Shown here: piece after piece, positions 22,441 to 37,298 of the stretch
Layout: each line of letters begins with the position of its first letter
Position numbering within the stretch: position 1 is the stretch's first letter
From: Clostridia bacterium
GTDB taxonomy: Bacteria; Bacillota; Clostridia; Christensenellales; Aristaeellaceae
Length of the DNA: 44,536 nucleotides
NCBI GenBank assembly: GCA_017523615.1
Contig: JAFWWK010000251.1
Location: 1 to 44,536, forward strand
Direction: 5' to 3'
Notes under the pieces: model-generated
The model's input: the letters and a program-made list of their open reading frames with translations, nothing else
Database searches by the model: none
What the model was told of the DNA's origin: nothing
Made by a program: the position numbers and the translations under genes

Positions 22441-22770
22441 TTACGCAGCGTCCTGCGGCTCAGTCGGCAGCCTCATCATGTCATTCTTCATCGCCGTGAT
22501 CACGTCGTTCCCGCCCAGGGCGTGGTAACTCGTGTACATGTCGTTGATGATCTTCTTCTTCTCCACCGTACAAAACCCCTTGCGCCTGGCCTCCTCGCAG
22601 TCCTCCGCGATCTGCCGCATCAGCAGCGCCCTCATCCCGTTCCTCAGCGCCTCGTTCTCTTCCCGGTTTTGCTTCAGCCTTGACGCCATCCTCCTGTACA
22701 GCCACAGCAGCACCCCCGCCACGATCCCGAACGCCCATTCCACCCAATACTTAGCGATCCATTCCGGCAT
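22441..22770 (-). CDS. Small membrane-anchored phage protein, unknown function
   Basis: The 109-aa product starts MPEWIAKYWVEWAFGIVAGV with one membrane segment, then a basic helix (LYRRMASRLKQNREENEALR) and a conserved-looking segment KKIINDMYTSYHALGGNDVI. ATG 22770 has AAGG 8 nt upstream; a GTG three codons earlier would overlap the endolysin. Proteins of this shape occur beside lysis genes in gut Firmicutes phages. The gap 22357-22440 holds two small GCTGCG/CGCAGC hairpins, each followed by GTCC. Confidence 0.6.
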   Translation of the reverse strand: MPEWIAKYWVEWAFGIVAGVLLWLYRRMASRLKQNREENEALRNGMRALLMRQIAEDCEEARRKGFCTVEKKKIINDMYTSYHALGGNDVITAMKNDMMRLPTEPQDAA

Positions 22771-22771
22771 A

Positions 22772-24226
22772 TCAGTCACCTTCCCCCAGCAGCTTTTTTA
22801 AATATTCATACAGTTCCCGCACCAGGTCCTCCGGCAGCATGAACATGATCATCTTCTCCTCTTCCTTCCCTTCCGGTTTCTCTTCCGGCTTCTCCTCCTC
22901 CGGCGGCGCCTTGTCCTGTTCCGCGGCGTCCTTTTTGTTCTTCAGGCTCTGCTGCTTCTCTATCTCCTGCCACGTCACGCCGCCCACGATCCCGTCCGCC
23001 GTCAGCCCGTACGCCAATTGGAATGCCATCACCGCTTCCCTGGTCTTCGTCCCGAACTTCCCGTCCACGGTCCCCGGGTCGAAGCCCAGCCCCTTCAGGT
23101 CCTCCTGCAGTTCCCGCACCGCATCCCCGCTGCTCCCGCTCTTCAGCGTCGGCTTCATCTTCACCGCCCCCGCTTCCTTCAGTTCCTCCGCCGTGTACAG
23201 CCCCTTCGGCACCGCGTAGTGCGTCCAGGTCGTGTCGCTCACCGCGCCCCGCTTCACAATGGTCGAACAATGGATGATCATCCCGTCCCCGATGTGCAGC
23301 CCCGTGTGGCTCATCTTCCCGTCTTTATACTTGAACACGCAGCACACCGCGTTCGGCATCTTCGAGATATTCCCCTTCTCCTCCCAGTTCGCCGCCTTGT
23401 CGTACTGGCTGGTGGCCCCGGCCCCGTCCAGTTTGATCCCCGCCGCCGTCTTCAGGATGTAATGCGTGAACCCCCGGCAGTCATAACACAAATGCCCGTT
23501 CCACTTGCAGTATGTACAGTCCGGTTCCTCCCCGTCCAGCACCGGGCACGCCCCGTAGATCTTCCCCTTGTACGCCGGATTGTACCCCGCGTACTGCTTC
23601 CGGATCTTCACCGTGCACGGATCCCCCCACGCCCCGTAGACGTAAGGATCCCCCAGTTTCTCCTCCGCCAGCTTCACGCACGCTTCGGCCTTCTCATTCA
23701 GCTTCACGCCCTTCTCGTCCTTCCTCCCGGTCCTCCGGTCATAGATCGCCTGTCCCATCCTCGCCCTGGCTTCCCTGTTCTCCTTCGATTGGTTCGCCGG
23801 CTTCTCGTATCCCACCAGCACCGCGTCGCTGGCTTCCCTTACGCTCTTCGCGTTCATCAATGTGGTAAGCACCGCCCCGTACTGCTTCAGCTCCGCCCAT
23901 AAATACGCCAGCTGCATCCCCAGGTCCCCGATGGATACGCCCTGACTCTTCGCAAAGTCATACAGGTCCCGCTTGCGGCTCCAGTATGTCCACTGCGCCA
24001 GCCCGTACCCGGCCCCGTCCTGGAACATCTCCCGCGTGATCGCCCCGCAGTCCACCGCCGCCGTGTATCCTTCATCCGTCCATCCGCTCGCGTCCGCGTA
24101 CCGGTTCTCCAGGTTGTTCGGCCTCAGACCGCTCTCCGCCTGCAGGTTCCCCATCAGCCCGGCCACCCCGTACTCGTTCCCGATCCGCTCACTCAGCCAC
24201 GCCCAGATGATCTCCTCATTGCTCAC
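22772..24226 (-). CDS. Three-domain phage endolysin (tail-lysozyme, NlpC/P60, PG-binding)
   Basis: GTG 24226 with GGAGG 7 nt upstream gives 484 aa. Residues about 3-165 match the phage tail lysozyme type: IIWAWLSERIGNEYGVAGLM, GNLQAESGL with Glu31 as likely acid, and GAGYGLAQWTYWSRKRDL. Residues about 180-335 look like NlpC/P60, with DCRGFTHYIL (Cys250) and HTGLHIGDG (His307). Residues about 360-425 are a PG_binding_1 repeat (GDAVRELQEDLKGLGFDPG, DGIVGGVTW). A Glu/Lys/Pro linker and a short amphipathic helix close the protein. It would cut both glycan and peptide bonds of the wall. It lies directly behind a solo 17-bp MITE end and upstream of the membrane proteins and holin. Confidence 0.85.
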   Translation of the reverse strand: MSNEEIIWAWLSERIGNEYGVAGLMGNLQAESGLRPNNLENRYADASGWTDEGYTAAVDCGAITREMFQDGAGYGLAQWTYWSRKRDLYDFAKSQGVSIGDLGMQLAYLWAELKQYGAVLTTLMNAKSVREASDAVLVGYEKPANQSKENREARARMGQAIYDRRTGRKDEKGVKLNEKAEACVKLAEEKLGDPYVYGAWGDPCTVKIRKQYAGYNPAYKGKIYGACPVLDGEEPDCTYCKWNGHLCYDCRGFTHYILKTAAGIKLDGAGATSQYDKAANWEEKGNISKMPNAVCCVFKYKDGKMSHTGLHIGDGMIIHCSTIVKRGAVSDTTWTHYAVPKGLYTAEELKEAGAVKMKPTLKSGSSGDAVRELQEDLKGLGFDPGTVDGKFGTKTREAVMAFQLAYGLTADGIVGGVTWQEIEKQQSLKNKKDAAEQDKAPPEEEKPEEKPEGKEEEKMIMFMLPEDLVRELYEYLKKLLGEGD

Positions 24227-24239
24227 CGCATCACCTCCA

Positions 24240-24256
24240 AACAGGGGACGGTTCTC
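24240..24256 (+). repeat. Solo copy of the 17-bp MITE end
   Basis: AACAGGGGACGGTTCTC matches the left end of the 497-684 element base for base. No inverted partner was found nearby. It abuts the ribosome site of the endolysin gene. It is either a footprint of a lost element or a REP-like single unit. Confidence 0.7.
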
Positions 24257-24310
24257 CGTTCGCTCTCTCCGCCATTCCCGTCCCGCGACTATACAGCACA
24301 ACCAGCCACG

Positions 24311-24380
24311 GCCACTCCGTACGCCTTCCCCGCGCACGGGGAAGGGGGACCGCCGTCAGGCGGTGGATGAGGTTCCCCCC
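24311..24380. repeat. Dispersed palindromic repeat, copy 1
   Basis: This copy has the core GCCTTCCCC...GGGGAAGGGGGACC followed by CGCC...GGCGGTGGATGAGG and TTCCCC. The inner GGGGAAGG pairs with CCTTCCCC. It fills the gap between the fibre-like gene and the endolysin gene. Related copies lie at 25348, 25744 and 28231. Confidence 0.75.
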
Positions 24381-24391
24381 AACCCCCGCCT

Positions 24392-25294
24392 TCACACAAT
24401 ATACTTTACCAAACAGTCCTGCGCCGTCCCGCTCTGCCCGTCCGCCTTCGCCGCCACCGTGAACGTCTCCGCGGCGAACACCCGGTCCTCCGCGTCGTCG
24501 TCGAAGGTCACCGTGATCGTCACCGTCAGCGACGGCCCGTAGGTCACGTTCGTCAATCCGCCCGTCATGTCCTCCAGCGTGTCCACCGTCAGGTATCCGT
24601 ACGCCGCCACATATTCGTCCATCGACTGGTTCAGGATCGTCACCGTGTATACCTGCCCGCCGTATGCCGCGCCGCTCACCTGCACCTTCACCCCGGTCAC
24701 ATACCCCGGCGTCTCTCCCCACTTTACCCGGAACCGCACCCCGTAGCTGCAGGAATTCCCGGTCGCCGCGTTCGTATCCCGCTCAAAGTAGAAGCTCTTC
24801 CGCTCCCCGCTCACGCATGCCAGCCCGCTCCCGTCCCCGGAGAACCTCGCCGACGCGCTGCCCCCGCTCATCGGCTGGATCCAGATCAGCCCGCTCCCCG
24901 CCGGCTGGGTGTCGCTCACCACGATCCTGCTGTCCAGGAACGCCTCCAGTACCGTCCCCAGGTTCTTGCCGTTTACCGTCAGGTCCTGCGTCGTCACGCT
25001 CTTCAGGTTCATGTCCCCGTTCTCGCCGATCGTCATCACCGTGTTCCCTTCACGGTCCTTGATCATGATCCCTTCGTCCGTGATGGTCGTGGACATGGTC
25101 TTCACGTCCTTCTCGCTTGCCTTCCGGATCTTCTCCTGCAGTTCCTCCGTCATGTTCTCTTCTTCCATGTGGTACTGCCAGTACTTCAGCTGTTCGCTCA
25201 GCTGGTACAGATACTGAAAGATCCTTTTCTGCGTCTTCTCGTCCTTCAAATCTTCCTGCCCGATCTTCCCCAGTCGGTCCAGGTCAATGTTCAT
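24392..25294 (-). CDS. Phage fibre-like structural protein
   Basis: The 300-aa product has an N-terminal helical part (residues 1-70, KIGQEDLKDEKTQKRIFQYL then KYWQYHMEEENMTEELQEKI). A repeat-like collar follows (TTITDEGIMIKDREGNTVMT, IGENGDMNLKSVTTQDLTVN), and then a beta-rich C-terminal half. This is the build of phage baseplate or fibre proteins, where TI.DEGI.I.D..GN.V.tI is a common pattern. No catalytic motif is seen. The ribosome site before ATG 25294 is weak. It lies between the Prp-like protease and the endolysin, separated from each by a dispersed repeat. Confidence 0.65.
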   Translation of the reverse strand: MNIDLDRLGKIGQEDLKDEKTQKRIFQYLYQLSEQLKYWQYHMEEENMTEELQEKIRKASEKDVKTMSTTITDEGIMIKDREGNTVMTIGENGDMNLKSVTTQDLTVNGKNLGTVLEAFLDSRIVVSDTQPAGSGLIWIQPMSGGSASARFSGDGSGLACVSGERKSFYFERDTNAATGNSCSYGVRFRVKWGETPGYVTGVKVQVSGAAYGGQVYTVTILNQSMDEYVAAYGYLTVDTLEDMTGGLTNVTYGPSLTVTITVTFDDDAEDRVFAAETFTVAAKADGQSGTAQDCLVKYIV

Positions 25295-25347
25295 TTGTGC
25301 CAGGTCCGCTCACTCCCTTCTCCAATCCTCACTCCTTCAAGAAACAA

Positions 25348-25424
25348 GGAAGACCCCGTAAGCCTTCCCCTTCAGGGGAAGGTGGCAGCGCCCTCGTAAG
25401 GCGCTGACGGATGAGGTTCCCCGT
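25348..25424. repeat. Dispersed palindromic repeat, copy 2
   Basis: GGAAGACCCCGTAAGCC, CTTCCCCTTCAGGGGAAGG, then GCGCC..GGCGC and GGATGAGGTTCCCCG. Its right edge touches the stop of the Prp-like gene. Confidence 0.8.
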
Positions 25425-25729
25425 CACTCGTACCTTACATCCTTCACGCTCACGTTCTCCGGATACTTCTCCGCGATGGCCTCCAGCTCTTCCCTCGCCG
25501 CGCTCAGTACGCAGGAATACCGGAACCCGAAGCCCCACACCGCCATCGTCCCGTCTTCCTCCGTCTCCACCCGCGCGTCCTTCTTGTGCATCGCCGCCCT
25601 GGCCACCATGTCCATCACCGCCGATACCGCCGCGCACACGATGTCCTGCCCCTTCTTCCCGTGCCCCGCGTGCCCCTCGGCCCGTATCATCCCCAGGTCT
25701 TTGTCTATCCGTATCTCGATCACGTCCAT
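25424..25729 (-). CDS. Prp-family cysteine protease, phage-encoded
   Basis: The 101-aa protein carries the Prp/YsxB signature GHAGHGKKGQDIVCAAVSAV, with His20 and Cys32 at the spacing of the catalytic His-Cys pair. Host Prp removes the N-terminal extension of ribosomal protein L27 in Firmicutes, and phage capsid and scaffold proteins can be cut at a similar site. Here the gene sits directly behind the portal gene, the slot where a prohead protease is usually encoded. A role in head maturation is therefore likely (inference). ATG 25729 or GTG 25720 could be the start; the latter has better ribosome-site spacing. Confidence 0.8.
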   Translation of the reverse strand: MDVIEIRIDKDLGMIRAEGHAGHGKKGQDIVCAAVSAVMDMVARAAMHKKDARVETEEDGTMAVWGFGFRYSCVLSAAREELEAIAEKYPENVSVKDVRYE

Positions 25730-25743
25730 CACCTCACTGCATC

Positions 25744-25874
25744 AAGGAAGACTCCGTAAGCCTTCCCCCTTGGGGTTTGTCATGGGGTGTCGGCGTTAGC
25801 CGACGGGGTGTCCCATGACCTCCGCAGAGGAAGGGGGACCGCGTAGCGGTGGATGAGGTTCCCCGTTCCCCGTT
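25744..25874. repeat. Dispersed palindromic repeat, copy 3, with a nested second hairpin
   Basis: The outer frame (AAGGAAGACTCCGTAAGCC...GTAGCGGTGGATGAGG) matches copies 2 and 4. The apical part is expanded by a 41-bp palindrome running from GTCATGGGG (25779) to CCCATGAC (25819). It includes GTCGGC/GCCGAC and resembles the extra hairpin of copy 4. Confidence 0.8.
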
Positions 25875-25879
25875 ACCCC

Positions 25880-28084
25880 TCACCTCGGCACCGTCGCGTC
25901 CCTCGCCACGTTCTTCGCCCTCTCCATCATGCTCGTGTTGCTCATGATCTTCCCCAGGCTGTTCATATCCGGCGTGTCGTTCCTTACCCTGGTCCCTTCG
26001 GCCCCCGCCGGCTGCGCGTTCCCCGCCGCCACCGGCGCCGCCGGAGCCATCACCGCCTGCGCCGCCGCCGGGTCGATCAGCCCCGCCTGCGTCAGTCCCT
26101 CCAGGATCATCGTCCCGTGCTCCCGGTCCACGATCGCCGCCAGCTTCGCCGCCTCCTGCTGCAGCTTCATCAGCCTGTCGTACATCGTCCCGTTCTTTTC
26201 TATGTTGCTCAGCACTTCCTGCTTGCCCTCAAAGTCCATCATCCTCAGGCAGGCCAGGCTCACGTCCGTGTTCTGCGGGTTGAAAAACCCCAATTGGAAA
26301 AACTCCTTCGCCAGCTCGTTCTGGCTGATCCTGCTGTACGGGCTCGCCTGCTGGGCCTTCACCTCCACGTCGAAGATCGGCCGCCGGCTGTCCTCCATCC
26401 CGAACATCCCCGGCCGCGTGCTCCCCTTGATCCGGATGTTTGAAAACTCCACGAACTGATTGGTCCCGTCCGCACCCGTGATCCGGAAGGTCCTCTGCTC
26501 GGTATAGAACTGCCGTATGTTCTCCAGCACCAGATAACACACCTTCGCGAAAGCCCGATAGCTCGCCTTGATCATGTCCCGGCTCAGCTTGCTCCCGGCC
26601 TCCTGCAGCGCCGCGATGGCGCTGGCCGCCGTCACGCCGCTCTGGCTCCCGCCCGCGTTCACGTCCCGGTTCCCGCTGATCTCCTTCAGCTCGTTCACGT
26701 AGGTCGTCAGCACGTCGATGCAGTTCCCGCTCAGCCCCTGCACCAGGATCGGCCTCACGTTCTCCTCGCTCACTTCGCCGGCAACGTGCACCAGCTTATT
26801 ACTGTGGTCCTTGAACTCGTCCTCGTTGATGGTCGCGGCGTCCCTTATCCACCACCGGTTGTTCACCGTCTCCAAAGCGTTCTCGGTGATCGCGTTCTGC
26901 AGCCTGTCGATGCGGGTCTGCACCCCCATCATGATGTCCACATACCCGAAGCCCGCCGGGCTGCCCTCCACCTTGTACATCACGTCCAGCACGAACGGAT
27001 ATTTCCCGTGATCATAGATCCCCGTGTCCTTCAGCGCCGGGTCGTTCTCGGTGGCGTACAGCACCACGTCCCCGCAGAACTTGCAGAAGTGCAGGATCTC
27101 CCTGCCGTCCTGCCACTTCTTGTAGTACCAGTCGATCACGCTGCTCTTCTCCGCGGCCTCGCTGTCGCTGTCCTCGTAGGCGTACTCCGCCGTCTGGAAG
27201 TCCCGGCCCCCCAGCTTCCCTTCCAACTGCGGATACATCGCCACCAGCGTGTCGTTGTCCTCCATGTACACATAGAACAGGTTCCGGCTCTCCTGGATGT
27301 CCTCACACCGCGGCTCCCAGTAAAGGTTCAAAACGTCTACACGTTTGATGTCGATATCCCCCAGCCCGTTCAGCTTCCTGCTGTTCCAGAACACTCCGTA
27401 GCATCCCGTGCCGCTCTTCAGCTTGTACTGCCAGGTCTCGTCGTACACCTGTTCGAAGTCGTTCTGCTCCAGGATCACCGGCAGCACCTGCGTCAGGATC
27501 TCCGCGTCCATCCTGTCGTTTGCCTCCCTTGGCAAAACAGAAGGGCTCGGGAAATTGTCCATCGCGTCCGCGTGCTTGTTCGCCAGGGAATTGAAAAGCC
27601 ACCCGCTCGGCGTGTCCGTCTCCCGGATGATGTTCTTCCGGATCATCGGCATGTGCTGCATCCGCCACCACTTCTCGTTGGCCACGATGCGCTTGTCCAT
27701 GTTCGCCTTGCCGGCCCTGTACCGGTTCAGCGTCTCCCGGGCCTTGCCCAATACTTTTTTATTGATCAGCCCCTCTTCCTCGTCCTCTTCCGGAACATAC
27801 CCGGCCCGCTCCCTGGCCTGCGCTTCCGCCGGGATCTCCCCGCCGAAGCCCTGCCTGATCTCCCTTACCATCGCCGCGTCCCGGTTCGGCATGCTCCCTT
27901 CGTCTCCGGGCAGCGCCTGTCCCGCCGCCGCCCGCTGTCCCTCCAGCAGTCCGGCCAGGTCCCTCTCGCTCCCCGGCCTGAATCCCGCCTGCTTCATCAT
28001 CCCTTCCCTCTGCATCCTCTCCCGCGCCGCGCCCATTGCGTCCGCCATCCTCTCTTCCCTCGTCTTCTGTCCGCCGCCTGCCAT
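25880..28084 (-). CDS. Phage portal protein (P22-like)
   Basis: The 734-aa protein is of the size of P22-type portals. It has the expected helical and beta order: MPMIRKNIIRETDTPSGWLF, NLYWEPRCEDIQESRNLFYV, GIYDHGKYPFVLDVMYKVEG, GFGYVDIMMGVQTRIDRLQN, then SGNRDVNAGGSQSGVTAASA and a long helical stem. The N-terminal 100 residues are charged and of low complexity. The C-terminal Ala/Pro stretch (AAAQAVMAPAAPVAAGNAQP) would be the barrel or tail end. It forms the 12-fold DNA channel of the capsid. AAAGGAG precedes ATG 28084. It lies between TerL upstream and Prp downstream; the capsid and scaffold genes normally following a portal are absent. Confidence 0.85.
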   Translation of the reverse strand: MAGGGQKTREERMADAMGAARERMQREGMMKQAGFRPGSERDLAGLLEGQRAAAGQALPGDEGSMPNRDAAMVREIRQGFGGEIPAEAQARERAGYVPEEDEEEGLINKKVLGKARETLNRYRAGKANMDKRIVANEKWWRMQHMPMIRKNIIRETDTPSGWLFNSLANKHADAMDNFPSPSVLPREANDRMDAEILTQVLPVILEQNDFEQVYDETWQYKLKSGTGCYGVFWNSRKLNGLGDIDIKRVDVLNLYWEPRCEDIQESRNLFYVYMEDNDTLVAMYPQLEGKLGGRDFQTAEYAYEDSDSEAAEKSSVIDWYYKKWQDGREILHFCKFCGDVVLYATENDPALKDTGIYDHGKYPFVLDVMYKVEGSPAGFGYVDIMMGVQTRIDRLQNAITENALETVNNRWWIRDAATINEDEFKDHSNKLVHVAGEVSEENVRPILVQGLSGNCIDVLTTYVNELKEISGNRDVNAGGSQSGVTAASAIAALQEAGSKLSRDMIKASYRAFAKVCYLVLENIRQFYTEQRTFRITGADGTNQFVEFSNIRIKGSTRPGMFGMEDSRRPIFDVEVKAQQASPYSRISQNELAKEFFQLGFFNPQNTDVSLACLRMMDFEGKQEVLSNIEKNGTMYDRLMKLQQEAAKLAAIVDREHGTMILEGLTQAGLIDPAAAQAVMAPAAPVAAGNAQPAGAEGTRVRNDTPDMNSLGKIMSNTSMMERAKNVARDATVPR

Positions 28085-28109
28085 GCCTTTCTCCTTTCCG
28101 TCTCATCGC

Positions 28110-28152
28110 AACAACATCACAACAACATCACAACAACATCACAACAACATCG
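28110..28152. repeat. 11-bp tandem repeat, about four copies
   Basis: AACAACATCAC is repeated head to tail about 3.9 times, just upstream of the portal ribosome site. It would be in the mRNA leader of the portal gene. No function is evident. Confidence 0.85.
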
Positions 28153-28230
28153 AAACTTTGTGATAACGCTAAGTTACAGCCAATTCTTGAAATACAACGC
28201 CGCTTATTTTAAGTATGCTTTAAATCCTGA

Positions 28231-28402
28231 AACAAGGAAGAGGTCACGGGACACTCCGTCCTCCTTCGTCGGACACCCCGTGACAATCCCCGTAAGCCTT
28301 CCCCCCGCAGGGGGAAGGGGGACCGCGTAGCGGTGGATGAGGTTCCCCTTGCCCCGTCGTCCACCACCCCGTGACAATGGATGAGGTTCCCCGTTCCCCG
28401 TC
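28231..28402. repeat. Dispersed palindromic repeat, copy 4, composite
   Basis: A hairpin with arms GTCACGGG (28243) and CCCGTGAC (28276) leads into the core CCCCGTAAGCCTTCCCC...GTAGCGGTGGATGAGG. A further partial copy (CACCCCGTGACAATGGATGAGG split by small changes) follows. This looks like stacked insertions of two related repeat families between TerL and portal. Confidence 0.75.
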
Positions 28403-28416
28403 TCAAACAATCTTCA

Positions 28417-29898
<1,482 letters not shown>

Positions 29899-29902
<4 letters not shown>

Positions 29903-30279
29903 GCGTCCTTCGCCAAAGCGTCTTTCTGCCGGGGACGCCTGCGGGCGGCGCGCCGCCTGCGGCGGGTGCGGGCGCTTTTCCTGCGTCTTTTTTCAGTGTC
30001 GTCAAATACGCGCAGCACCTCCTCCGGGGCCGGCGCGTCGGCGTCGTAGAGGATGTTCAGCACGCAGGCCTGGGGACAGAGCCTCAAGCAGGAGGGGCTG
30101 GCGCACACGTCGCCCAGCCACCGGTCGCGTTCAGCGGCGCACCTGAAGCGCTGCACGGAATCCCGGCCGAAGGTGAGCCCTTCGCATACGATGACAGTGC
30201 CGGTATCCCGGACATAGAAGGGGCAGTAGACGCTTTCCGCGCTGCTCGCCGGGCGGTTTTTGATTTGGCTGCAGGTCAT
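29899..30279 (-). CDS. Cys-rich phage protein, unknown function
   Basis: The 126-aa protein has an N-terminal Cys-rich part (CPFYVRDTGTVIVCEGL, FRCAAERDRWLGDVCA, CLRLCPQACVLNILYD) that probably binds zinc. Its C-terminus is strongly basic (RRRKSARTRRRRRAARRRPR), suggesting DNA or RNA binding. It lies between the two terminase genes and overlaps TerL by 4 nt, so it may help packaging or select DNA. ATG 30279 has AAGGAAG about 10 nt upstream. No named family was recognised. Confidence 0.6.
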
Positions 30280-30999: not shown

Positions 31000-32400
31000 A
31001 TGGATTTGAGCAAGCAGCGCAAGGCTCCGACGGGGGATTTCAGCCGGGGGAGCGTAGGGAGCAACATCATGCAGCAGGCGCTGCCGCTTTTGGCGGCGGA
31101 AGTCGTGCACCTGATGTACAATATCGTGGACCGGATCTATATCGGCCATCTGCCGGGCGCGGACGCCATGGCGCTGACGGGCCTGGGGGTCACGTTCCCC
31201 CTGGTTGCCCTGGTGGGCGCGTTTACACGGCTGATCGGCACGGGCGGCGCGCCGCTGTTTTCCATTGCCCGCGGGGCGGGGGATACGGAACGGGCTGAGA
31301 GGCTCCAGGGCACCTCGGCCGCGTGGCTGGCGCTGCTGAGCGTGTTTGTATTTATTTTCTGCATGGCCTTCCAGCGGCCCATTTTGTTTTTGTTCGGCGC
31401 GGGGGAGAGCAGCTATGCCTATGCAGACCGTTATCTCAGGATCTACCTGTGGGGCACGGCCTTTACGATGATCGCCACCGGCATGAACGGTTTTATCAAC
31501 GCCCAAGGCCGCCCAAAGGTTGGCATGCTGACTGTGGCGCTGGGCGCGGTATTGAACCTGATACTGGATCCGCTGTTTATCTTTGTTTTCAAAATGTCCA
31601 TCGAAGGCGCGGCCCTGGCGACAGTCATCAGCCAGGGGGCGTCCTGCGCCTGGGTGCTGCTCTTCCTGTGCGGCAAAAGAGCGCTGATCCCCTTAAAGCG
31701 CGCCGACCTGCGCTTAAGGCCCAAATTGGCGGGGGAGATCTGCCGCCTGGGCGTATCCGGATTCATCATGTCGGCCACCAACTGCCTCACCCAGGCCGCC
31801 TGCAACGCGGTCCTGCAGGCCCGCGGAGGCGAAAACTGGGTGGGCGTGATGACGGTGCTCCATTCCATCCGGGAAGTGCTGAGCCTGCCGGTCAACTGCA
31901 TTTCCACAGGCGCCCAGCCCTTTATCGGCTTCAATTACGGCGCGAAGGCCGTGGAAAGGGTCAAAAAAGGGATCCGCTTCACATTTTTCGCCGGCGGCGC
32001 CAGCACCCTGGCGGCCTGGCTGTCGGTGGAGCTGTTTTCCGGGGCGTATGTGCGTCTGTTTACCGATAACGCCGCCATATTGCAGGAGGCGCCGGACGCG
32101 CTGAAGGCTTACTTTTTCGCTTTTGTGTTCATGGCGTTCCAGATGACGGGGCAGAGCACCTTCACGGCCCTTGGCAGGTCAAAGCAGGCGGTGTTCTTCT
32201 CGCTCCTGCGCAAAGCCTTCATCGTAACGCCCCTCACCTTCCTGCTGCCGTACATCATCATGCCGCCGGTCTACGGCGTGTTCTGGGCCGAGCCTGTCAG
32301 CAACGTCATCGGCGGCCTGGCCTGCTTTATCACGATGATGGTGACTGTGTACGCCAGGCTGGAGGCTTCTCCTGATCCAGACGGCGGAAGAAGATCATAA
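31000..32400 (+). CDS. MATE-family multidrug/cation exporter
   Basis: The roughly 466-aa membrane protein shows the twelve hydrophobic segments and pseudo-twofold order of MATE transporters: NIMQQALPLLAAEVVHLMYN, NIVDRIYIGHLPGADAMALT, TLNLILDPLFIFVFKMSIEG-like central stretch, and VLHSIREVLSLPVNCISTGA in the second half. It exports drugs or metabolites in exchange for Na+ or H+. The start is ATG 31000 (GGAGG 4 nt before) or a nearby TTG 31006 with better spacing; ATG 30976 has a poor ribosome site. It stands alone, divergent from the phage block and convergent with the XRE gene. Confidence 0.88.
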   Translation: MDLSKQRKAPTGDFSRGSVGSNIMQQALPLLAAEVVHLMYNIVDRIYIGHLPGADAMALTGLGVTFPLVALVGAFTRLIGTGGAPLFSIARGAGDTERAERLQGTSAAWLALLSVFVFIFCMAFQRPILFLFGAGESSYAYADRYLRIYLWGTAFTMIATGMNGFINAQGRPKVGMLTVALGAVLNLILDPLFIFVFKMSIEGAALATVISQGASCAWVLLFLCGKRALIPLKRADLRLRPKLAGEICRLGVSGFIMSATNCLTQAACNAVLQARGGENWVGVMTVLHSIREVLSLPVNCISTGAQPFIGFNYGAKAVERVKKGIRFTFFAGGASTLAAWLSVELFSGAYVRLFTDNAAILQEAPDALKAYFFAFVFMAFQMTGQSTFTALGRSKQAVFFSLLRKAFIVTPLTFLLPYIIMPPVYGVFWAEPVSNVIGGLACFITMMVTVYARLEASPDPDGGRRS

Positions 32401-32817
32401 TAGGGTATCCTTTGCGCCGCCTTCCTCCGGCGGTCGGCAGGAAGGCTGGGGAGGAAGGCGCTTCCCTTTCCGCTGAAAAGAAAAAAGCCGGGGCGCGGGC
32501 CCCGGGCAAAAGAAAAACAACGGCTGCCGGACCCCATCGGAGCGCGGCGGCCCAAAAACATGGGGGACCCCCGGGTCGTCGTAGACCAGGAGGTCCTCCA
32601 TGTGCACCTTCAGCACCCGGGCCAGGGCCAGCAGGTTATCCACCGAAGGGAGGCACTCGCCGTGCTGCCACTTGTAGATGGCCTGCGGATACTCGAACCC
32701 GAAGAAGTCCTGAAGGTCCCGGACACTCAGTCCGGCCTGGCGGCGGTGCCGCTCGATGCTACGGCCGGTTTCCGCCAGGTTAATGACCGGGTAGGTCATC
32801 ATCTTGATATCGGCCAT
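32395..32817 (-). CDS. XRE-family regulator with an aberrant C-terminal tail
   Basis: The first 80 or so of 140 residues are an XRE HTH: RSIERHRRQAGLSVRDLQDF, FGFEYPQAIYKWQHGECLPS and VDNLLALARVLKVHMEDLLV. From about residue 85 the frame turns Pro/Arg/Phe-rich and reads straight through a strong terminator hairpin (32488-32505), which is not normal for a gene. Homologues usually stop shortly after MEDLLVYDDP, so a frameshift around 32560 is likely and the protein now carries a random tail. Its promoter is at 32946-32974. It diverges from the giant RNA region and could control it through the palindrome at 33006. Confidence 0.75.
   Translation of the reverse strand: MADIKMMTYPVINLAETGRSIERHRRQAGLSVRDLQDFFGFEYPQAIYKWQHGECLPSVDNLLALARVLKVHMEDLLVYDDPGVPHVFGPPRSDGVRQPLFFFCPGPAPRLFSFQRKGKRLPPQPSCRPPEEGGAKDTLL
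32478..32506 (-). terminator. Intrinsic terminator of the XRE gene
   Basis: On the minus strand CCGGGG pairs with CCCCGG (32488-32493 with 32500-32505), followed by CTTTTTTC. It lies inside the last third of the present XRE reading frame. Confidence 0.8.
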
Positions 32818-33005: not shown

Positions 33006-33022
33006 TTAAACCATTGGTTTAA
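33006..33022. promoter_or_regulatory. 17-bp palindrome upstream of the giant RNA region
   Basis: TTAAACCATTGGTTTAA is a perfect palindrome around its central base. ATGACA directly overlaps its right end (33022-33027), and TAAGCT follows 17 nt later, a modest plus-strand promoter candidate. An operator controlling the RNA or the divergent XRE gene is a reasonable inference. Confidence 0.45.
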
Positions 33023-33118
33023 TGACAATCCCCTTTGGGTGTGTTAAGCTGTGCCTGTCGCCGGGAAAACGGCGGACGCCGGGCGCCAGGGCCTGGAAGC
33101 ATCTTGACAACCGCACAG

Positions 33119-33771
33119 AAAACGAGTTCCTCCAGGCCATTCCGCAACTCAGTGCATAAGCGGGATGAAAACCGTTCTGAGAGGCGCCGGCTTTCGGCAG
33201 TGGGAGCTGCCGGAACGTCCGCATTGGGGAAAAAGGCCGGGAATACCCGGCGTGAGTGCCCTGCGGGACCCGCGCGAGCGGGCGACGGAATGCCGAAAGG
33301 CAGAAAATGCAGTGCTGTGCCGGAGGAACGCAGACCAAAGCGCAGTCTCTGTCGCCGGTCAATTGACGCCCTCCCGAAAGGAGGGAATAACCCGGAATGC
33401 CGCGGGGCGGTGCCCGCAGGAGAGCGCATAATGTGAGCAGATTATGCCTTTTCCGGGAAGACTGACAAGCCGGTTTCCAGTGAAGCCCCGAAAGGAGCGT
33501 ATAAGACGGAAGGCTGACCCGAGTAGCGGAAAATGGAATCGCTCGTCTCCCTGCACTATCGAAATTGTGAATCATCACAATCTTTGCCGGAAGAACCGTG
33601 AAAGGTGAAGGTAACCAACCCTTTTTGAGCCCGGGCGGCGAAAGCCGCGGGATACGCGGATGGGAGTCGCTGCCCATCAACCGGCCGTATTCCCTCAATG
33701 GCTGAACAGGTCTGAAGTTCCGGTCGGTACCGTGAAAGCGGGCGGAATGGCCCGGAGGAACTCGTTTTTTT
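33119..33771 (+). ncRNA. Giant structured RNA module 1 (about 650 nt)
   Basis: Positions 33119-33145 pair with 33742-33768 at 26 of 27 positions, closing a 596-nt interior, and the 3' arm runs directly into T7 (33765-33771), so the closing helix doubles as terminator. Inside are many clean hairpins. These include 33236-33251 (GCCGGG-AATA-CCCGGC), 33269-33282 (GCGA tetraloop), 33291-33302 (GAAA tetraloop), 33369-33385, 33426-33447, 33564-33581, 33636-33647 (GAAA tetraloop) and 33659-33678. No credible coding frame covers the region. Size, closing helix and GNRA-rich interior are in the style of the large ornate RNAs ROOL, GOLLD and OLE. I could not match it to a named class, and the 5' end may lie upstream, near 33055. 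The plus strand is chosen because the T tract and the downstream gene fit it. Confidence 0.75.
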
Positions 33772-33772
33772 A

Positions 33773-34523
33773 GCGGACACGGGCAGAGGGCCCATGCGAT
33801 CGCGCATGAAAAAATCGGGCTGCGGGGCAAAAAGGAAAGCCTCCCGGCAGGCGGTCGCACAGGTCCTTTCGCCGCGGCCGCTTTTGATCCAACAGCTTCC
33901 GCATCCCGGTGAAAAAATGCAGTCATGCATCCGGGACGTATCCGATGGGGTGCCGGACGGGAGGGATACCTTCCGATACCGACCTGCGCGTGGCAGCAAT
34001 GTCCCGCGCAAAGGCGAAAACGCCAATCCGGCGGGTATGGTGCGGAGGATCGGATACCGATAACGCAGGAATTCTGCCGCTGACGCAATAGACGCCTCCT
34101 GTGGAGGAAGAATCCGGCTGAGGCGAAGGAGCAGTCATCCTTCGCATACCGGAAACCCTGACCCGGGAAACAAGTCAGCCGCCGTTGAACGCGGCCTGAG
34201 AAGGGCCGCGGTATAAGGCAGAGGTTCCGTGCAAGTAGCCTTATCGGCTAATCTTTCAGGTGAACGTTGGGGGCGACAGATCCCCTCCATAATCCGCGGG
34301 AAACCGCGGGGGCAGCGCGGCGTCCGGATTGCTACCGAACGTAAGCGGGCTTACTGGTGGCGGAATAATCGGCGTACGGTTTGACGTATGGCGAAAGCCG
34401 GCGGAAACTGTTGGATCAGAAGCGGAAGTCTTTATCAGCGCCCGGCCGTATGCTGGCCTTCGATCATGAAAGGGCCTGAATACCGGCGAACGCCCGCGTC
34501 CGCGGCATTGTCTTATGTTTTTT
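33773..34523 (+). ncRNA. Giant structured RNA module 2 (about 750 nt)
   Basis: Two nested long-range helices define it. Positions 33773-33784 pair with 34492-34503 (11 of 12), and 33878-33902 pair with 34401-34425 (24 of 25 including one G-U). Internal hairpins include 33793-33808 (CATGCG-ATCG-CGCATG), 34013-34024, 34123-34145 (8-bp perfect), 34191-34209 and 34294-34309 (6 bp with GAAA loop). T6 at 34518-34523 follows the outer helix after 14 nt. It starts within 2 nt of the end of module 1, so the two are either tandem RNAs or halves of one 1.4-kb transcript. The alpha-CTD gene begins 100 nt downstream with no clear promoter of its own, so the RNA may also act as its leader. Confidence 0.72.
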
Positions 34524-34623
34524 AGGGAGAGGGGCCCCGCGGCCCGGACAGGACAGGAATCAGATTCCAGAGAACGCAAATGACGCTGCGCGCCATGCCG
34601 AAACGTTTCAGGGAGGGATGCCT

Positions 34624-35367: not shown

Positions 35368-35390
35368 CGCCGCCGGATGGCGGCGCGTTT
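35368..35390 (+). terminator. Hairpin after the alpha-CTD gene
   Basis: CGCCGCC (35368-35374) and GGCGGCG (35379-35385) form a perfect 7-bp stem with a GGAT loop, followed by CGTTTGT. The T tract is weak, so termination would be partial. Confidence 0.5.
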
Positions 35391-35768: not shown

Positions 35769-36664
35769 TAGCCTTCCTTGTCCATATGGGACCTGGGCTC
35801 GCCGTTTATTGCCTGCAGGGCCGTGTAAGGCGCGTACAGCAGGTATTCCACCTTCAGGCAGGGCTTCCCGTTCACCATTACGTACCAGCTGTTCCCTTCG
35901 CTTTCGCCGCATACGGTGTACAGTTCCATCAGGCTGATCTCGGCCTCGCCGAGGCTGTAATTGGTGATGATGAATTCCCGCCCGATGGCGACCAGATCCT
36001 CCTCGGGCAGCCTTCGTGCCTCCATGGCGGCCGTTTTGTCCGCTTCCAGGCGCTCGGGCCAGGTCTCGTCCGGTTCAGAGGACGAAACATCCTCAGAGGC
36101 TCCGTGCGCTTCGGCGATGGCGGCGGCCCGGCGGAGGAACGCCTGCTTGCGCCGCGCGTCCAGGCAGTCCGAAAGCATCTCCGTCAGCTGGTCCTTCCCC
36201 CAGGCTTCCGCTTCGTAGCCGCCGGAGGTGTCCTTCCCGTCGTGGCTCCAAAGGATCTCCGCCTTTCCGTCCTTCACAAGGACGGTATAGGTGCCAAGCA
36301 CATAATTCAGGTCCCCGGCCCCGGAAAAGGTCACCCGGACCGTGCCGTCCGGCTGTTCTTCCTCCTCCCGCCCGAAGAAGGTCATCATCTCCGTCGTGAC
36401 GCCGCGTTCTTCGGCCATGGCCCGCTCGGCGATCCGGGCCGCGTTCACCCTGGGGGAGAAAAGAAGGCTTGCCGCCAGGGCCGCGGCGGAGAGCGCTGCC
36501 AGCAGGACCGCAAAGGCAATGATAACGGATATCTTTTTTTTCATGACCGGTTTTTCCTCCCGTTTGATCCGCTCCATGACCGCGCCGCGGCAGGACGGCA
36601 GGCTGTCCAGGAAGGAGAGCCGGCGGTCCATAGCGTCCCGGAGCGATGAGTTATTCGTCTTCAT
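35690..36664 (-). CDS. Anti-sigma-factor-like membrane protein
   Basis: The 324-aa protein has a short cytoplasmic N-terminus (LRDAMDRRLSFLDSLPSCRG), one membrane segment at about 43-65 (KISVIIAFAVLLAALSAAAL) and a large outer part. The outer part contains PepSY-like stretches (GTYTVLVKDGKAEILWSHDG, EGYYIVYVNVTDGTVEEYVH). ATG 36664 overlaps the sigma gene stop by 14 nt and has GAGGA 8 nt upstream. Coupling to an ECF sigma gene and this topology fit an anti-sigma factor that releases sigma on an envelope signal. No classical ZAS zinc motif is present, so the mechanism is open. Confidence 0.7.
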   Translation of the reverse strand: MKTNNSSLRDAMDRRLSFLDSLPSCRGAVMERIKREEKPVMKKKISVIIAFAVLLAALSAAALAASLLFSPRVNAARIAERAMAEERGVTTEMMTFFGREEEEQPDGTVRVTFSGAGDLNYVLGTYTVLVKDGKAEILWSHDGKDTSGGYEAEAWGKDQLTEMLSDCLDARRKQAFLRRAAAIAEAHGASEDVSSSEPDETWPERLEADKTAAMEARRLPEEDLVAIGREFIITNYSLGEAEISLMELYTVCGESEGNSWYVMVNGKPCLKVEYLLYAPYTALQAINGEPRSHMDKEGYYIVYVNVTDGTVEEYVHDSGLGGEG

Positions 36665-37157
36665 GATACCAGTCCTCCAGTTCTGTTTTGAGGATCGCTT
36701 TCGCCTTTTTCAGGCGGTAATTGACCGTCGAGCGGGGGATAAGCAGCGCCCGGGTCATCTCCGCCAGGGTCATCCCCTGATACCAGTGCATCAGGGTCAC
36801 TTCCTTCAGCCGGGGCGGCAGGGACATTACCGCCCGGGTGACGGTGTCGTCCCGTGCCTCGAAGGGCGCCGAGCCCTCCGGCAAAAGGTCCGGGGTCACT
36901 GTCCGGTCGGTGTGGCGGCGCCAGGCGCTTTTGTTCAGGTCCCTGCAGGTATTGACGGCGATGCGCGTCAGCCAGGTTTTTTCCGACGCGTCCCCGCGGA
37001 AACGGCCGCGGTTTTTCCATGCCTTGAAAAATGTTTCCTGAACGGCGTCCTGCGCCAAGGCGGCGTCGCCCAGGAGGACGAAGCACAGCCGGAGCAACGG
37101 TTTTTCCCATCGGGTGATGACGCCGTCCAGCCATTCCCGGTGCGTATCCTGTGTCAA
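36651..37157 (-). CDS. ECF-type RNA polymerase sigma factor
   Basis: A TTG start at 37157 with AAAGGAGG 7-8 nt upstream yields 168 aa. The frame is open 40 codons further upstream without a ribosome site. Region 2 is clear (LLRLCFVLLGDAALAQDAVQ, ETFFKAWKNRGRFRG), as is region 4 (LPPRLKEVTLMHWYQGMTLA, EMTRALLIPRSTVNYRLKKA). There are no regions 1 or 3, as expected for ECF sigmas. It directs transcription of its own and other genes when freed from the downstream anti-sigma protein. No matching ECF promoter was recognised upstream. Confidence 0.88.
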   Translation of the reverse strand: MTQDTHREWLDGVITRWEKPLLRLCFVLLGDAALAQDAVQETFFKAWKNRGRFRGDASEKTWLTRIAVNTCRDLNKSAWRRHTDRTVTPDLLPEGSAPFEARDDTVTRAVMSLPPRLKEVTLMHWYQGMTLAEMTRALLIPRSTVNYRLKKAKAILKTELEDWYHEDE

Positions 37158-37298
37158 ACAGCTCCCTCCTTTCAACACTTCATTAGACGACGCGGCGTTG
37201 AAAACGGGCCAAATTATTTGGCTTTTTTGTTTGTGCCGTACATCGGGGGAGAATGCCTTTTTTCCGTGTCCTTTCACCCCGGCTTTCCGTCGGTCCGC

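Follow-up and report, generated by a model that had tools for sequence, protein, structure and literature searches.

Two distant, mutually complementary segments in a 44,536-nucleotide stretch of DNA from a Clostridia bacterium (Aristaeellaceae; contig JAFWWK010000251.1), which was analysed as a whole and is called the window here, raise the question of what they enclose and whether the enclosed element stands alone. The original prediction, made from the bare letters, described a giant, ornate RNA without a credible gene inside and listed ROOL among its candidates. The long-range match is real: positions 33119-33145 and 33742-33768, 596 nt apart, are complementary at 26 of 27 positions, which is beyond chance given that 100 random versions of the same 2 kb (first-order Markov) gave a best comparable 27-mer of 21/27. 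With one G-T pair allowed, the helix extends from 33117/33770 and contains a single mismatch (33134/33753). When the window was compared by cmscan with all 4227 Rfam families, the enclosed stretch was identified as ROOL (RF03087; 169.9 bits, curated gathering score 99.1 bits; match 33124-33760, model positions 1-574 of 574). This end-to-end match documents that the stretch 33117-33770, designated ROOL-A, is a member of a known RNA class with the long helix as its closing stem P1, and it rules out a new class. The large structured RNA had thus been foreseen correctly. Two ROOL matches were the only hits of the scan, and GOLLD, OLE, raiA and HEARO, which had been proposed for the same check, gave none over gathering.

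The closing helix also passes the suggested covariation check. In seven aligned A copies, 163 of the 168 cells of its inner 24 pairs are paired and 12 of these pairs have changed on both sides, compared with 35-52% pairing and at most four such pairs in slid controls. A protein-coding reading of ROOL-A is without support, in accordance with the presumed lack of a gene: substitutions are evenly distributed over the codon positions of the whole A copy (235/266/273), and the longest plus-strand ORF is broken in all six relatives compared (stops were counted on that strand alone). Loops of GNRA type (CGAAAG, GTGAAAGC) can be recognised by eye and are conserved, as had been anticipated for GNRA tetraloops. 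The proposal that the helix doubles as a terminator finds no support in the relatives. The run of seven T at the 3' arm exists (33765-33771), but only in the window genome; in the six other clostridial copies whose spacer is known, the arm is followed by mixed sequence (TTTACAGG, TTTGCAGG, TTTCTTAC, TTATCAGC, TTATGGCG, TTACAGAA).

The predicted extent (33119-33771) covers one RNA but is too small as a unit, since another ROOL and the gene for a protein also belong to it (Table 1). Just downstream of A, a second long-range stem of 25 positions (33878-33902 with 34401-34425) closes ROOL-B, which matches RF03087 with 212.2 bits (33881-34419, model positions 1-574 of 574; gathering 99.1) and exhibits both-side changes in 13 of the 25 pairs of its stem. 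No ROOLs other than A and B were found in the window assembly. B is framed by an outer helix, which is paired in 60/60 cells of the five genomes having it, with a both-side change in only one of its 12 pairs; it is absent in G663 and G272.

Table 1. Features of the tandem ROOL locus (positions of the window)
Feature	Position	Strand	Basis
Palindrome TTAAACC-N3-GGTTTAA, operator-like	33006..33022	.	by eye
Promoter-like ATGACA, 16 nt, TTAAGC	33022..33049	+	by eye, alignment of 8 upstream regions; weak
Conserved leader element CTTGACAAC	33103..33111	+	CTTG[A/T][A/C]A[A/G][C/T] in 8/8 aligned clostridial leaders
ROOL-A	33117..33770	+	RF03087 match; ends set by closing helix
ROOL-A closing helix, 5' arm	33119..33145	+	26/27 match, covariation
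ROOL-A J8/6, core GACUG at 33460-33464	33458..33466	+	covaries with L8 of ROOL-B
ROOL-A closing helix, 3' arm	33742..33768	+	26/27 match, covariation
Outer helix around B, 5' arm	33817..33828	+	paired in 5 genomes
ROOL-B	33878..34425	+	RF03087 match; covarying closing stem
L8 of ROOL-B, core CAGUC at 34132-34136	34130..34138	+	contact analysis with J of A
Outer helix around B, 3' arm	34534..34545	+	same helix as 33817..33828
ROOL-linked protein, 228 aa	34618..35304	+	3' of ROOL pair in 9/9 pair genomes
Terminator-like hairpin, 3' of protein gene	35368..35385	+	consensus scan; weak

The order A, B, protein gene is not peculiar to the window. ROOL is present in five of 300 genomes of the family (window genome included), all five with the A-B-protein order, an A-B spacing of 105-122 nt and a protein homologue 3' of the pair; among 396 genomes of the order, it occurs in the window genome only. 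A protein-led scan of 84,980 species genomes retrieved nine loci, eight with two tandem ROOLs just upstream. Four of these pairs were already known through ROOL, and the four new ones (G662, G663, G665, G666) were found through the protein and hence selected by it. The ninth locus is Blautia G664, where by eye a 3' remnant of ROOL-B precedes the protein; on another contig of this genome a whole A-type ROOL stands before a fragment of the protein, so that two damaged cassette pieces (L050, L096) are present. The cysteine-pattern search for the protein misses this damaged copy and is thus not exhaustive. Altogether, nine genomes harbor the pair with spacers of 28-122 nt, and all nine have the protein after it (cut by the contig end in G663); five of the nine were found free of selection by the protein. 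Judging from these sequences, the order is kept in distant Firmicutes.

The protein is no mark of pairs alone, because in G1029 (L098:1041-1918) it is located just before a single, self-matching ROOL; it accompanies ROOL, not pairs exclusively. In the family to which G665 (a Solobacterium record) belongs, 15 of 195 genomes have ROOL and a tandem occurs only in G665 itself, while G859 harbors two ROOLs on different contigs; in scans of more than 40 genomes a small number of candidates is scored per genome (2-4 where reported), and second copies can be missed. Rescanning the 15 loci of this survey with their available flanks yielded one ROOL in 14 and two in none, and L094, which had scored 180.8 bits in the survey itself, gave no match by cmscan. 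The ROOL motif retrieved 18 viral contig stretches, 16 with one ROOL each and none with two; the ROOL of L059 is identical to that of L054, and the 16 loci therefore hold 15 different ROOLs. The linked protein was not found in the single-ROOL loci (viral and G665 family), where neighbours may be missed because some stretches are short or end at the ROOL. The loci of five further weak protein matches (E 1.8e-4 to 9.5e-4) lack a ROOL. A search for the pair in the phage and plasmid collections by blastn of 33100-34450 remained without a match in both, and two exact ROOL patterns plus two protein queries recovered neither pair nor protein from viral contigs.

In five of the clostridial pairs, the likeness of A to B is 46-54%, and that of A copies, or of B copies, between genomes is 62-89%. 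In the phylogenetic tree, clostridial A joins clostridial B and Solobacterium A joins Solobacterium B, the Solobacterium ROOLs being placed next to the single viral ROOL L058. A single shared duplication of all pairs is weakly rejected by the AU test (all A as one clade p 0.012, all B as one clade p 0.035; long branches are in play). The grouping by lineage together with this weak rejection points to two duplications, or to a single one with gene conversion early on, and the Solobacterium pairs were apparently duplicated separately.

A loop and a junction connect the two RNAs. In the cryo-EM cage of ROOL, L8 of one chain pairs with J6/8 of the neighbouring chain (bridge B4), according to the available excerpts of PMC12286853. 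We took as junction the strand after P8, mapped putatively from the Rfam consensus and by eye, and L8 and junction were picked by hand after an automatic finder had failed. Of 27 single ROOLs extracted, near-copies (L065, L067, L069, L082), a copy with a cut 5' end (L061) and one like L087 (L088) were dropped; 21 served in the comparison with pairs, and the addition of L098 gave 22. In these 22, the L8 of each RNA matches its own junction, with an energy sum of -122.1 versus -77.9 (sd 7.3) for permuted combinations and none of 20000 permutations as low, and the junction mapping is borne out by this self matching.

The pairs behave differently from the singles. A homo-oligomer should have an L8 that fits the junction of an identical chain, but L8 of B with the junction of A is stronger than both A-self and B-self matching in 9/9 pairs, narrowly in G663. 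The matching strands differ in sequence: CAGUC/GACUG in the window genome, CAGUCA/UGACUG in G124, CAGUCC/GGACUG in G125, UGGUC/GACCA in G295, UCGGUC/GACCGA in G662, UCGU/ACGA in G272, CGGCG/UGCCG and GGCG/UGCC in the two Solobacterium pairs, and a poor UAGU/ACUG (-2.2 kcal/mol) in G663. Label permutation returned p 0.0008 for the seven clostridial pairs and 0.00005 for all nine, values that ignore kinship, and with five clostridial genomes being close relatives the independent events are few. In a blind Watson-Crick scan of 385,920 A-by-B window pairs, this combination alone ranks top for 4-mers (four different 4-mers, 6/7 genomes) and for 5-mers, but not for 6-mers; with G-U pairs it shares the top class with seven others, making eight. 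The reverse contact, L8 of A with the junction of B, is good only in Solobacterium (-7.5, -5.1), where loop and junction match in both directions; the clostridial pairs reach a weak -2.8 to -4.0 or so, and only -4.1 to -5.5 with a 20-nt junction; relabelling over all nine gave p 0.021. A second P8 hairpin of clostridial A, tried as an alternative partner for the reverse contact, brought no gain.

As L8 of B fits the junction of A rather than its own, A and B would be neighbours, and we infer that they assemble together. That the unit consists of two paralogous ROOLs, A and then B, which would assemble jointly, and of a small gene for their protein partner, is in our estimate about as probable as its opposite. 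Order and spacing suggest that A, B and the protein gene are most likely transcribed together; in Solobacterium, about 30-40 nt separate B from the start of the protein gene. The two RNAs would fold, each closed by its P1 stem, and then join by the crossed L8-junction contact, either in trans or inside a single A-B transcript, and, provided that the reverse contact forms as well, they would alternate around each ring. The protein may bind the RNA cage or its cargo. Cargo encapsulation, which the excerpts of PMC12286853 propose for ROOL cages, is our working guess for the role of the assembly. A bolder version, to which we give somewhat less than an even chance, is a natural heteromeric RNA cage: the duplicated ROOLs would have swapped their kissing-loop specificities, with closure possible for the mixture only, separately in at least two lineages, and together with a dedicated zinc-ribbon protein with transcription- and translation-like domains they would form a chromosomal RNA-protein compartment.

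Two other explanations are unlikely to an equal degree. A and B could remain joined in a single transcript, roughly 1.3 to 1.5 kb long, with an intramolecular contact of L8 of B and the junction of A, resulting in a cage of covalent A-B dimers. The short spacers, the lack of a conserved terminator in the A-B interval and the outer helix, which connects the spacer with the region downstream of B in five genomes, are compatible with such a molecule, but A and B each have their own long closing stem and T7 follows A in the window genome. Alternatively, A and B might build two separate homo-oligomeric cages, the tandem being a duplication for dosage or for two functions. Published ROOLs are homo-oligomeric as far as the available excerpts go (octamers, PMC12286853; a hexamer in L. 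salivarius, PMC12191101) and A-self matching is partly kept in G295 and G662 (-5.8 in both); against this speaks that B-to-A matching beats self matching in all nine pairs, whereas the single ROOLs self-match.

The genomic setting bears on a third explanation. A phage-type gene block on the minus strand (22441-30279; endolysin, Prp protease, P22-like portal, large terminase) lies 3-11 kb from the ROOL pair, and no tRNAs were found in the window. Ten neighbour proteins in six other cassette genomes comprise eight with Pfam matches, including transketolase, GDPD, methyltransferase and IspD, the latter at both Solobacterium loci, and two without (Pfam only). The cassette is hence not always located within a recognisable prophage. 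A decaying, functionless phage remnant, as might be supposed from the terminase, portal and endolysin genes at 22.4-30.3 kb and from the damaged cassette pieces in Blautia, is very improbable in view of covarying stems in both RNAs, a retained contact, eight of ten neighbour proteins in Pfam families of which none is phage-typed, and the absence of pair and protein from viral contigs by the queries used.

The favoured joint assembly of A and B would include the linked protein, whose layout is a zinc-ribbon-like N terminus (C-x4-C ... CPxCG), a middle domain and an alpha-CTD. Its four cysteines are invariant across eight aligned rows. The RNA polymerase alpha C-terminal domain (PF03118) was detected in the window protein (E 2.5e-24, 85.2 bits, threshold 23.8) and in three of eight homologues. 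The ribosomal protein L7/L12 C-terminal domain (PF00542) reached 23.8 and 22.3 bits (E 5.7e-5, 1.6e-4) in two Blautia fragments, below the cut-off of 25.9, and was missing from the matches of the window protein and of the remaining homologues in the scan; from these two fragments, the middle domain may be called weakly L7/L12-like. The alpha-CTD and this faint likeness could point to RNA polymerase or the ribosome, which we regard as a lead only. A protein profile matched 259 of the 300 family genomes, but among the matches listed (to E ~5e-19) the five ROOL genomes alone reach the N-terminal half; the others cover the alpha-CTD part, which is what RpoA would give. A small basic open frame, noted by eye, follows the protein gene from 35439.

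Compared with the homo-octameric ROOL nanocage (RF03087) in the available excerpts of PMC12286853, the locus shares the end-to-end covariance model match, the closing stem P1, the P8 hairpin with its junction, a variable linker region and a size of about 540-650 nt. It differs by two diverged tandem copies, an L8-junction specificity that crosses over from B to A, the conserved protein gene 3' of the pair and no tRNA found in the window. Proximity to tRNAs in phage or prophage is a usual, not a defining, trait of ROOL, and we know of no function described for this RNA. GOLLD RNA (RF02032) is likewise a giant, phage-linked RNA forming a cage (excerpts of PMC12286853), but the window is without a GOLLD match. 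OLE is a large RNA with a partner protein encoded by a downstream gene (excerpts of PMC5643018); here, there is no OLE match, and the alpha-CTD is the sole strong domain match of the protein. As RNAs, A and B belong to the known ROOL class, but their arrangement (tandem, cross-matched, with a conserved protein) is without a literature precedent found: the titles, abstracts and excerpts surveyed, a scope outside of which the original ROOL description falls, contained no tandem or heteromeric ROOL. According to PMC12286853, a protein partner of ROOL had yet to be identified, and the conserved neighbouring protein provides a concrete handle on ROOL. If true, the crossed loops in the duplicates would be evolutionary evidence, independent of cryo-EM, that cage contacts matter in cells, and a two-component cage would imply that RNA paralogues evolve mixed quaternary contacts like protein paralogues.

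The flanks contain candidate control elements. The leader element directly 5' of A presumably resembles boxA antitermination sites, and a boxA-like element would fit a long untranslated transcript. The promoter-like pair is weak because the consensus promoter scan does not report it. The operator-like palindrome overlies this site, and a gene for an HTH_3 regulator (32395-32817) adjoins; similar palindromes are present in G124, G125 and G664, but not in G295, G662 and G272. The hairpin behind the protein gene is weak evidence, since six such terminator-like sites were found by the consensus scan versus 4.1 expected. A Sigma-70 family (ECF-like) gene is located near the cassette on the minus strand (36651-37277). 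Finally, one viral contig (L056:972-2417) combines a ROOL with a GOLLD on one strand, separated by about 390 nt and amid tRNAs.
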